The translations under genes were made by a program, and so were the position numbers. The notes under the pieces were generated by a model. That model had not been told where the DNA came from, did no database searches, and saw nothing but the letters and a program-made list of their open reading frames with translations. Source: Natronosalvus vescus (lineage in GTDB: Archaea > Halobacteriota > Halobacteria > Halobacteriales > Natrialbaceae). From it: a stretch of DNA of 64,000 bases. Shown piece after piece: positions 2,242 to 5,297 of this stretch. Positions within the stretch are counted from its first letter, which is position 1, and the number at the start of each line of letters is the position of its first letter. Location: assembly GCF_023973145.1 (NCBI RefSeq), contig NZ_CP099546.1, forward strand, positions 682,001 to 746,000, given 5' to 3'.

Positions 2242-3765
2242 ATGGACGCGGCACTCATCATCCTCGACGGCTGGGGCCTGGGCAGCGAGGACGGCGGTCG
2301 GAACGCGGTCGAGGCGGCGCACACACCCGTCGTCGACCGGCTGACCGCTACCTGCCCGTCGGGATGCCTCGAGGTCGCCGGCCGCCGGGTCGGCCTGCCG
2401 GACGGACAGATGGGAAACAGCGAGGTCGGTCACCTCAACATCGGCGCTGGCCGGGTGGTCTTACAGGAGTACACCCGGATCGCCGACGCCGTCGCCGACG
2501 GCAGCTTTCGGGAGAACGACGCCATCAACGCCGCGTTCGACTACGCGCTCGCTCACGACGGACGGGTTCACTTCCTCGGTCTCGTCAGCGACGGCGGCGT
2601 CCACGCCGACCAGGAGCACCTCCACGCGCTGATCGGCATGGCTGCCGACCGGGAGGTCGAGGCCGTCACCCACGTGATCACCGACGGTCGGGACACCTCG
2701 CCCCACGGCGGGGAGCGCTACCTCGAGACCCTCGAGGCGGTGGTCGAGGAAGCCGGGACGGGCGACGTTGCGACAGTCACCGGCCGGTACTACGCGATGG
2801 ATCGCGACCAGAACTGGGAGCGAACGAAACGGGCCTACGACGCCATCGTGAATCGGGAGGCCGACTACGAAGCCGAGTCGGCGGTCGATGCCGTGATTGA
2901 GTCATACGAGCGCGGCGAGACGGACGAGTTCGTCGAACCGACGCTCGTCGAGGATGGACTGACACTCGAGGACGGTGATGCGGTCGTCTGGTTCAACTTC
3001 CGCTCCGACCGGGCGCGTCAGTTGACCCGCCTGCTCGCCGATATTCGCCCCGAGTGGGAGTTCGAGTCGCACCCACCGGAGAGCAAGGTCGTCATGCTCA
3101 CCGAGTACGACAAGACGTTCGACCTGCCGGTGGCGTTCCCGCCCCACCAGCCCACGCAGGTGCTGGGCGAGGTGCTCGCCGACGCCGGGAAAACCCAGTT
3201 GCGGATTGCCGAATCCGAGAAGTACGCCCACGTTACCTACTTCCTCAACGGCGGCCGGGAGGTCGAGTTCCAGGGCGAGATCCGGGAGATCGTCGCCAGC
3301 CCCGACGTCCCGACCTACGACCTGCAACCGGAGATGAGCGCCCCCGCGGTCACCGATACCGCTATCGAACACATCGAACGCGACGATCCCGACGTCCTGG
3401 TACTCAACTACGCCAACCCCGACATGGTCGGTCACACCGGCGACTACCGCGCAGCTGTCGAGGCCGTTGAGGCCGTCGACACCCAACTCGGCCGCCTGCT
3501 CGAGACGCTCGCGGATCACGGTGCCCACGTGTTCGTCACCGCCGATCACGGCAACGCCGATGATATGGGCAGCGAGGAGGAGCCCCACACTGCCCACACC
3601 TACAACGACGTCCCGTTCGTCTACGTCGATCCGACGGCCGGCGAGGTGGGGAGCGACTGGGCCGTCCGCGAGGGCGGGACGCTCGCCGACATCGCCCCCA
3701 CGATGCTCGAGTGTATCGACCTCCGACAGCCGCCGGAGATGACTGGCGAATCGTTGCTCGAGTAG
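2242..3765 (+). CDS. gpmI: 2,3-bisphosphoglycerate-independent phosphoglycerate mutase
   Basis: Interconverts 3-phosphoglycerate and 2-phosphoglycerate in glycolysis and gluconeogenesis, using a Mn-dependent phosphoserine intermediate. The 507-residue length matches the bacterial-type iPGM. The N-terminus has ILDGWG with metal ligand Asp9. The catalytic Ser60 sits in GQMGNSEVGHLNIGAG. The C-terminal metal-binding part contains VTADHGNAD and HTAHTYNDVPFVYV, typical of the alkaline phosphatase superfamily. An open frame extends further upstream to 1972, but the ATG at 2242 starts the conserved core and is preceded by an A/T-rich stretch (GGTAATTGA). Function is confident. Confidence 0.96.
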   Translation: MDAALIILDGWGLGSEDGGRNAVEAAHTPVVDRLTATCPSGCLEVAGRRVGLPDGQMGNSEVGHLNIGAGRVVLQEYTRIADAVADGSFRENDAINAAFDYALAHDGRVHFLGLVSDGGVHADQEHLHALIGMAADREVEAVTHVITDGRDTSPHGGERYLETLEAVVEEAGTGDVATVTGRYYAMDRDQNWERTKRAYDAIVNREADYEAESAVDAVIESYERGETDEFVEPTLVEDGLTLEDGDAVVWFNFRSDRARQLTRLLADIRPEWEFESHPPESKVVMLTEYDKTFDLPVAFPPHQPTQVLGEVLADAGKTQLRIAESEKYAHVTYFLNGGREVEFQGEIREIVASPDVPTYDLQPEMSAPAVTDTAIEHIERDDPDVLVLNYANPDMVGHTGDYRAAVEAVEAVDTQLGRLLETLADHGAHVFVTADHGNADDMGSEEEPHTAHTYNDVPFVYVDPTAGEVGSDWAVREGGTLADIAPTMLECIDLRQPPEMTGESLLE

Positions 3766-4133
3766 ATCGCTCTTGTCGGCCACACAGCGGACGTTTGGGC
3801 TCGATTTCCCCGTCGTTTCCGCTGGAAAGGTCGACTTCGGAGCTCGAGGAGCAGGTTCGAGTGCTCGGTGTGATAAAACCGTTCGCTCGAGTGTCCGCTG
3901 TCGTTCCGAACTGATGTCGGACGAGACGGGATTCGAACCACGTCTGAGAACCAGTTCGTTTCGCTCGCGGAATCCCGTGTCTAATTCGAATCTCCCTGTG
4001 TCGTTCCCGGAGCTCACCGCCGTCTACGGTAGACTCGGGCGGGACGGGATTCGAACCACGGTCGCAGCAAAGCTGCTCCCTGATTCGAATCCCGCACGAT
4101 CCGTCAACGGCCTCGCGTCGCTCGGCGCGTTGA
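3766..4133. repeat. Non-coding hairpin tract with two extra copies of the tRNA-Arg 3' end
   Basis: No convincing gene lies here; a plus-strand frame ending at 4195 is a shadow that runs into the tRNA. The sequence ACGAGACGGGATTCGAACC at 3921-3939 and GGGCGGGACGGGATTCGAAC at 4037-4056 nearly repeat the complement of the last part (T-arm half and acceptor strand) of the tRNA-Arg gene, whose matching bases are 4135-4154. Each copy is followed by an inverted TTCGAATC, at 3985-3992 and 4084-4094. The second pair is an 11-base perfect stem (4045-4055 with 4084-4094) that encloses a small GCAGC-AAA-GCTGC hairpin (4064-4076). A third hairpin, CCGTCAACG (4101-4109) with CGTTGACGG (4128-4136), abuts the tRNA 3' end. 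The tract may be scars of integration at the tRNA, or tRNA-derived repeats. Confidence 0.6.
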
Positions 4134-4206
4134 CGGGCGAGACGGGATTCGAACCCGCGATCAGAAGGTTAGGAACCTCCTGCCCTCTCCGCTAGGCCAC
4201 TCGCCC
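4134..4206 (-). tRNA. tRNA-Arg (anticodon CCU)
   Basis: The minus strand folds as a complete 73-base cloverleaf. The acceptor GGGCGAG pairs with CTCGCCC, followed by discriminator G; CCA is not encoded. The anticodon arm is GGAGG-TTCCTAA-CCTTC, giving anticodon CCT (decodes AGG), and the T arm is GCGGG-TTCGAAT-CCCGT. There is no intron. It starts only 11 bases after the tatA stop codon on the same strand, too little for its own TATA box in the gap, so transcription from tatA or from inside its tail is likely. Confidence 0.93.
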
Positions 4207-4217
4207 CGATAAAAATC

Positions 4218-4529
4218 CTAGTTCGTTTCCGTTTCGGTTTCCGTCTCTGTCTCCGTCTCGGTATCGAACTCATCGTCGTCCGTGACCGGCTCGGTGTCGA
4301 CGAACTCGTCTTCCTCCTCGTCGTAGTTTCCAGTCTCGCGCATTTCTTCGAGTTCCTTTTCAACTTTCTCCTGCCCCTTCTTGAACTCGCCCATGGCCTC
4401 CCCTGTCGACCGAGCCAACTTGGGGATCTTGTTCGCCCCAAAGAGCAAAATGGCGATGAAGAGGATGATCAGGAGTTCCGGACCCCCGGGAACGCCGGGG
4501 ATGACAAGCGGTGCGATTTCGGCTACCAT
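4218..4529 (-). CDS. tatA: Sec-independent twin-arginine translocase subunit TatA/E
   Basis: A 103-residue Tat translocase pore subunit in the cytoplasmic membrane, exporting folded proteins with RR signal peptides, the main export route in haloarchaea. The N-terminus has a hydrophobic segment (about residues 12-32), then the conserved FGANKIPKLARSTGEAMGEF hinge and amphipathic helix. A charged helix follows, and the tail is acidic with a TETETE run encoded by a degenerate GTCTCC/GTTTCC-like hexamer repeat at about 4220-4262. The ATG at 4529 is preferred over an upstream TTG at 4556 because a TATA-like TTATAATT lies 25 to 30 bases upstream. A plausible Tat substrate in this window is the BMP lipoprotein near 40.1 kb. 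Confidence 0.92.
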   Translation of the reverse strand: MVAEIAPLVIPGVPGGPELLIILFIAILLFGANKIPKLARSTGEAMGEFKKGQEKVEKELEEMRETGNYDEEEDEFVDTEPVTDDDEFDTETETETETETETN

Positions 4530-4553
4530 CTCTATGCGTGGATTACCCGCTGG

Positions 4554-4562
4554 CAATTATAA
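4554..4562 (-). promoter_or_regulatory. TATA-like box of tatA
   Basis: On the minus strand the bases read GGTTATAATT, about 25 to 30 bases before the ATG at 4529. This fits a leaderless tatA transcript and argues against the longer TTG start. Confidence 0.45.
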
Positions 4563-4820
4563 CCTTTTTGGACCGGCGGGTGAAGCCGCAGGAAGCGAAA
4601 ACAGTCGTGTATGGCCCCGCTACTGCCGATATTTTGACCCGAGCGGGATCACCGACGGTTCACACTCCCGGAACGTTGGTATGACCGGTTAATTGGCTGT
4701 GACGGCCGTTCGAACGCCTGGCGACTTCGATGAGGCGAGTCCCCACTCCCTCCCTCGAGCGACCCGGTCAGAGGCGTCCGAAAACGAAATCCCCTTGCCG
4801 GCCGCCCCGGAGGTACCGAT

Positions 4821-5297
4821 ATGGTCGACGTCGGCGACATTGCTCCCGAGATCTCGGCACCGGTCGCAACCGGAGATGTCGAATCGTTCACACTCACCGA
4901 TCGCCTCGAGGAAGAGGCATCGATCGTCCTCGCCTTCTTCCCGGCGGCGTTCACGAGCACTTGCGCCACTGAACTGTCCACGTTCGAGGATCGATTGGGC
5001 CGATTCGACGACCTCGAGGCGACAGTGTATGGCGTCAGCGTCGATTCCCCGTTCGCGCTCAACGAGTTCCGATCCCAGCAGGGACTCTCGTTCGATCTGA
5101 TCAGCGACTTCGAGAAGGAGCTCATTGACGCCTACGACGTCCGGACTGATTTCGCCACCATCGACGTGTACGGTCTAGCCAAACGAGCCGTGTTCGTCGT
5201 CGATGCCGATGGTGTGGTGACGTACACATGGGTCAGCGACGATGCGGGCGTTGAACCGGACTACGACGCGGTCGAGGAAGCCGTTGTGAAGGCTTGA
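4821..5297 (+). CDS. Peroxiredoxin (AhpC/TSA family, Bcp/AhpE-like)
   Basis: A 158-residue thiol peroxidase that reduces hydrogen peroxide and organic peroxides. The family motif PxxxTxxC is present as PAAFTSTC, with peroxidatic Cys48 and Thr45. The sequence continues with TELSTFEDRLGRF and a thioredoxin-fold core. The later part contains AKRAVFVVDADGVVTYTWV, the usual strand near the active-site Arg. No second cysteine is visible after Cys48, suggesting a 1-Cys mechanism that depends on an external thiol. It stands alone between tatA and an HD-domain gene. Confidence 0.9.
   Translation: MVDVGDIAPEISAPVATGDVESFTLTDRLEEEASIVLAFFPAAFTSTCATELSTFEDRLGRFDDLEATVYGVSVDSPFALNEFRSQQGLSFDLISDFEKELIDAYDVRTDFATIDVYGLAKRAVFVVDADGVVTYTWVSDDAGVEPDYDAVEEAVVKA

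Follow-up and report, generated by a model that had tools for sequence, protein, structure and literature searches.

What left copies of a transfer RNA's own 3' end, in both orientations, in the DNA that follows the gene? The question is raised by the window analyzed here, a stretch of 64,000 nucleotides from the 3.84 Mb chromosome of the haloarchaeon Natronosalvus vescus, in which such copies are arranged as hairpins beside tRNA-Arg(CCU) (685,921-686,136 of the chromosome; all other positions are those of the window). The original prediction, made from the letters alone, reported near-exact copies of the tRNA end, and alignment places them at 3917-3942 and 4035-4060, with the true tRNA match at 4133-4158. 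The motif CGGGATTCGAA occurs four times in the window (3927, 4045, 4084 on the minus strand, and 4143), compared with 0.07 occurrences expected from shuffles, and a chance origin of the tail copies is ruled out by these controls. The 11-base stem predicted to join 4045-4055 with 4084-4094 is indeed exact. Each copy was also thought to have an inverted TTCGAATC partner; both partners are present (3984-3991 and 4083-4090), that of the first copy being the less perfect one.

Two cassettes behind tRNA-Arg(CCU)

The copies belong to two units of approximately 100–120 bp, here called cassettes, which extend from tRNA-Arg(CCU) toward lower coordinates (Table 1). Read in the sense of the tRNA, a cassette opens with a trailer hairpin and an inverted copy of the host T-arm, continues with a hairpin core that varies, and ends in a direct copy of the tRNA tail. 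The core of cassette 2 is similar to the one found behind tRNA-Arg(CCU) in genomes G007 and G002, and at this locus seven species of the genus show different combinations of hairpin type and core type. The minus strand of 3900-4215 folds with a predicted energy of -147.3 kcal/mol and is thus more stable than its shuffled versions (-124.3 kcal/mol, z -4.3).

Table 1. Components of the tRNA-Arg(CCU) locus, listed in the sense of the tRNA
Feature	Position	Strand	Remarks
tRNA-Arg(CCU), host gene	4134..4206	minus	ARAGORN; Rfam RF00005, 62.5 bits
tRNA-Arg(CCU) tail	4134..4155	minus	T-loop, 3' T-stem strand and 3' acceptor strand; source of the downstream copies
Cassette 1, trailer hairpin	4104..4133	minus	TCAACG..CGTTGA; same hairpin type at the tRNA-Arg(CCU) locus in other species
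Cassette 1, linker	4095..4103	minus	degenerate, in the position of the inverted acceptor strand; inverted pair I1, 73% complementary
Cassette 1, inverted T-arm copy	4084..4094	minus	CGGGATTCGAA; 11/12 to tRNA-Arg(CCU)
Cassette 1, core	4057..4082	minus	type I, CAGGGAG-CAGCTTTGCTG-CGACCGTG; sequence, 4082-4057: CAGGGAGCAGCTTTGCTGCGACCGTG
Cassette 1, direct copy of tRNA tail	4036..4057	minus	21/22
Cassette 2, spacer	3995..4035	minus	with hairpin GTCTAC..GTAGAC
Cassette 2, inverted T-arm copy	3983..3994	minus	9/12
Cassette 2, core	3940..3982	minus	other type than cassette 1; TAGACACGGGATTCCGCGAGCGAAACGAACTGGTTCTCAGACGT
Cassette 2, direct copy of tRNA tail	3918..3939	minus	21/22

Two reading frames touch the locus. 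One, of 140 amino acids on the plus strand (3773-4195), spans the cassettes and contains DETGFEPR and GETGFEPA, in line with the false gene calls that had been foreseen here; it is very probably spurious, and comparable frames are to be expected behind other tRNAs of Halobacteria. The other, a short frame on the minus strand (4218-4556) recognized by eye as TatA-like, adjoins the tRNA gene and is its neighbor in many other genera as well.

Ends that follow the host, cores that do not

The arrangement is not peculiar to tRNA-Arg(CCU). When a tail copy is defined as a same-strand match of at least 17 of 22 positions located no more than 700 nt downstream, 16 of the 43 tRNAs of the genome are followed by copies of their own tail, 19 copies in all, against 0.05 expected with Markov-shuffled flanks, and upstream of the same 43 tRNAs there are no same-strand copies of this kind. 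With the cut-off relaxed slightly, hardly any matches to the tails of other tRNAs appear in these downstream flanks. An inverted arm with at least 9 of 12 matching positions accompanies 42 of 55 tail copies (copies of at least 16/22, three genomes).

A comparison of 110 cassettes reveals how closely the ends follow the host. The direct copy is 93% identical to the tail of its own tRNA and 65% identical to the tails of tRNAs for other amino acids; beyond the universal T-loop the respective values are 89% and 44%, and the own tail is the best match in 104 cassettes. The inverted arm is likewise host-specific over the T-loop and the 3' T-stem and at background over the acceptor part, the positional profile falling to background at the linker that takes the place of the inverted acceptor strand. 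The cores behave differently, with 88–98% identity between cassettes that lie behind different tRNAs, as exemplified by the tRNA-Phe core of genome G000 and the tRNA-Ser core of G007 (97.9% over 47 nt), and this in species whose genes differ by about 10% or more. Near-identical cores behind different tRNAs, combined with host-specific arms, indicate that cores have passed from one tRNA gene to another, with arms that match the new host.

Placement and distribution

Using the tRNA and its flank as the query, the cassette unit was matched many times in nearly all relatives. The type I core, CAGGGAG..CGACCGTG, is present in 171 of 244 Halobacteria genomes, representing 59 of 73 genera (Natrinema, Natrialba, Halorubrum, Haloarcula, Halobellus and many others), and in none of 236 genomes from other classes of the phylum; a control with the reversed pattern gave no matches. 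The original prediction's suggestion of a tRNA-derived repeat family was therefore right, and the family is far broader than the one locus implied, with hosts of almost all amino-acid identities. Copies next to the tRNAs of this genome and its relatives, which had been proposed as the check, are abundant and consistently positioned, neither missing nor scattered as random matches.

Placement was assessed on 160 unique cores, 152 of which could be tested. A same-strand tRNA lies within 336 nt upstream in 146 cases, and the remaining six cores are behind a truncated tRNA or a fragment of a tRNA tail that ends inserted DNA, which in two of these cases carries integrase-like reading frames (recognized by eye). 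Cores in tandem are spaced about 100–110 bp apart, as at loci L038 and L154.

A second kind of core, ACATCGCAAAC..GTTTGCTCAATC, was seen at L045 (behind tRNA-Ala), L080, L276 and L277. The inverted and direct copies on its two sides are limited to the acceptor strand, and it may represent a sister family.

Gain, loss and exchange

Since the tRNA genes are not syntenic between species of the window's genus, empty sites were sought in G002 and G007, which are close to each other and largely collinear at their tRNAs. Behind tRNA-Ile, a single cassette with a 22/22 tail copy is present in G007 and missing from G002, and the G007 flank past the tail copy aligns with the flank past the G002 tRNA; the empty site in G002 looks like the product of a deletion. 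Two cassettes follow tRNA-Ser in G007 and none in G002, and cassettes also differ between the two genomes at tRNA-Leu(GAG), tRNA-Phe, tRNA-Arg(TCG) and others. At tRNA-Glu and tRNA-Leu(TAA), the first hairpin and the arms are kept and the cores are different. In G007, tRNA-Glu is followed by the core that G002 has in its second cassette, so that a deletion within the array explains the swap. Overall, loss by simple recombination is better documented than gain.

The tRNA-Leu(GAG) locus (L317 compared with L345) has a further peculiarity: G007 contains an extra 284 bp that repeat the tail together with the beginning of the flank, a plain tandem duplication in which a type I core is not evident.

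The placement, the host-matched arms, the shared cores, the tandem stacking, the presence or absence of cassettes with joints at the tail copies and the exchange of cores within arrays are all observed. With moderate confidence, we interpret them as the marks of a family of short hairpin cassettes in haloarchaea, non-coding and either mobile or recombinogenic, that reside at tRNA 3' ends, use the T-loop as their site and take their ends from the host tRNA.

Structured trailer RNAs or scars of integration?

Among the points against a mobile repeat are a conserved, strand-specific fold and a covarying inner stem, which would also be compatible with selection on an RNA. In 44 cassettes with an 11-nt inner loop, pairing in a 21-pair hairpin extends to 95% of the cells, compared with 86.5% after shuffling, and the inner stem shows 72 cells with changes on both sides against 23.5 in shuffled alignments (covariation score 0.256 against 0.109). 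As this alignment was selected by the core pattern, the constancy of CAGGGAG and CGACCGTG is there by construction, and the arms and the inner stem alone are informative. Of the two strands, the one in tRNA sense is predicted to have the more stable fold in 108 of 110 hairpins, whether RNA or DNA energy parameters are applied, because the core retains a tandem G.A mismatch and a bulged G; such a predicted asymmetry fits an RNA and a strand-specific fold of single-stranded DNA equally well. A kink-turn, which the tandem G.A pairs might suggest, was set aside since the required 3-nt bulge is missing.

On these grounds the cassettes could be parts of long pre-tRNA transcripts, retained as structured trailer RNAs that serve as processing signals, as decoys of the tRNA 3' end or as small RNAs with a tRNA-like 3' end. 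Downstream of the E. coli tyrT gene, tandem units that each contain a tRNA 3' end give rise to RtT RNA, a case known from one locus in one lineage. The cassettes resemble these repeats in standing in tandem behind a tRNA and carrying its 3' end, and their invariable tRNA sense and position directly downstream favor a trailer; they differ in having an inverted T-arm and another sequence, and an Rfam scan of 3700-4700 returned the tRNA and one chance match only, with no RNA family for the cassettes and no match to RtT. Moreover, only 12–19 of the 43–44 tRNAs in a genome bear cassettes, the set varies between close species, and T-rich stretches directly after the tRNA at several loci could end transcription before the cassette is reached. 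In six pairs of orthologous G002 and G007 cassettes without a core swap, each with one predicted fold, 2 base pairs are compensatory, 13 are kept and 21 are broken, a small and weak sample in which pairs break about as often as expected without selection. On balance, we regard a structured RNA, which the original prediction had also suggested, as a less likely reading. The position of the first T-run does not clearly separate tRNAs with and without cassettes, and a promoter or terminator role was rejected. Given the turnover of cassettes and the point changes that break pairs, the family seems to persist more by turnover than by conservation site by site.

The original prediction had pointed to integrases, whose excision or repeated use at tRNA 3' ends would leave copies of the attachment site. 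Archaeal tyrosine integrases do favor tRNA 3' ends, where the T stem-loop provides the required dyad symmetry (PMC8371274), and the duplicated att site is a direct copy of the 3' part of a tRNA with a boundary at the T-loop (PMC8371274). So are the tail copies described here, in which 17–22 of 22 positions match. Repeated insertion and loss of elements could accordingly have left both tail copies and element remnants. Inserted DNA with integrase-like frames, again recognized by eye, lies between the complete tRNA and the cassette at L145 (1-3300) and L201 (2000-2800), as does a truncated tRNA-Leu end at L212 (approximately 4700-5063), an arrangement that would result if elements had integrated in front of cassettes already present. 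In the form proposed, the integrase explanation is not supported. Duplication of an att site yields direct copies only, and it accounts neither for a tRNA-specific inverted arm nor for the same core behind different tRNAs in so many genera; nor does a cassette of this size contain an integrase. None of the 8 integrase matches of the genome is near a cassette-bearing tRNA, and the core was found neither in 2.9 million viral contigs nor in the phage and plasmid collections searched. Integration scars are therefore improbable as the source of the family. Quite improbable, too, is a process without any element, in which replication stalls at tRNA genes, fold-back template switching copies the tRNA end to and fro and gene conversion keeps the copies alike: the order of tail, flank, inverted flank, degenerate inverted tail, core and tail does resemble serial fold-back copying, and an inverted acceptor strand is recognizable by eye at several loci (I1 here), but near-identical cores at unrelated tRNAs throughout the class disfavor it as the sole mechanism.

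Possible mechanism and relation to known elements

For a family of mobile or recombinogenic cassettes, we infer how the arms would become matched to a new host as follows. The core may reach another tRNA through the T-loop sequence GTTCRAAT, which is nearly universal and palindrome-like, and its outer ends would then be completed from the tail of that tRNA. As the tail copy would keep the tRNA intact, the insertion would be harmless, and recombination between copies of the tail or the T-arm could subsequently delete, multiply and shuffle cassettes. Candidates for the transfer step are a tyrosine integrase acting at the T-loop and replicative template switching at the hairpin; since archaeal tyrosine recombinases are known to act at the T stem-loop and at tRNA 3' ends (PMC8371274), one of them may be involved. 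Neither an autonomous element nor a recombinase dedicated to the cassettes was found. A bolder version, which we put forward tentatively, is that the cassettes are a new kind of mobile DNA with borrowed ends: the short hairpin core, possibly folded as a single strand, would be able to recombine with any tRNA through its T-loop, and both outer arms would be rebuilt from each new host without harm to the tRNA. Each copy would then be custom-fitted to its own site.

Several known systems share some of these traits. Integron attC arrays are made of tandem cassettes with a folded hairpin that is strand-specific, has unpaired positions and a variable terminal stem, and follows the consensus GTTRRRY. 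The tRNA cassettes have the tandem order, the strand-specific hairpin with its unpaired positions, the variable terminal stem and a GTT at the possible joint, but they contain no cassette gene, and GTTCRAAT, with C at the fourth place, departs from GTTRRRY. In MITEs the terminal inverted repeats are common to all copies and related to a transposase, whereas here the inverted arms follow the host tRNA; the tail copy of about 22 nt could pass for a target-site duplication, although recombination rather than transposition could yield it.

Among published elements, the small mobile repeats and PATEs of Haloquadratum come closest (PMC3119063). SMR-A of Haloquadratum walsbyi is non-coding, about 110 bp long, contains inverted repeats and is inserted in palindromes, its movement being left unexplained by the authors (PMC3119063); the cassettes, also haloarchaeal, are similar in size, lack of coding capacity and possession of inverted repeats. 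Identity between copies of SMR-A commonly exceeds 95%, the terminal repeats are fixed, there is no target duplication, and the targets are near-terminal palindromes of IS605-type elements or PATEs (PMC3119063). In contrast, the ends of a cassette are those of the host tRNA, its site is always a tRNA 3' end or tail fragment, and it brings a direct tail copy (here behind 16 of the 43 tRNAs). PATEs are short, non-autonomous haloarchaeal derivatives of the palindromic, strand-asymmetric IS200/IS605-type elements (PMC3119063). Palindromic, strand-asymmetric and short as well, the cassettes differ in having no fixed terminal oligonucleotide or shown relation to a transposase and in being confined to tRNA tails. 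Host-fitted ends are the unusual feature among short non-autonomous mobile repeats. No earlier description of the family was found in the literature covered, from which subscription journals were mostly absent, and an earlier account is possible.

If confirmed, the family would mean that a whole archaeal class carries an undescribed repeat that is tied to tRNA genes and has ends fitted to each host, and would provide a case of a repeat that moves between different target sequences without damaging them; many spurious gene calls could be removed. Should the cassettes be RNA instead, they would form a large unannotated set of tRNA trailers. The family could also help to explain breaks of gene order at haloarchaeal tRNA genes. 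At tRNA-Leu(CAA) (L232-L239), the downstream gene is conserved in 8 genomes and has the tRNA beside it only in the genome of the window, so that gene order breaks at this tRNA, and the cassettes could be a cause.
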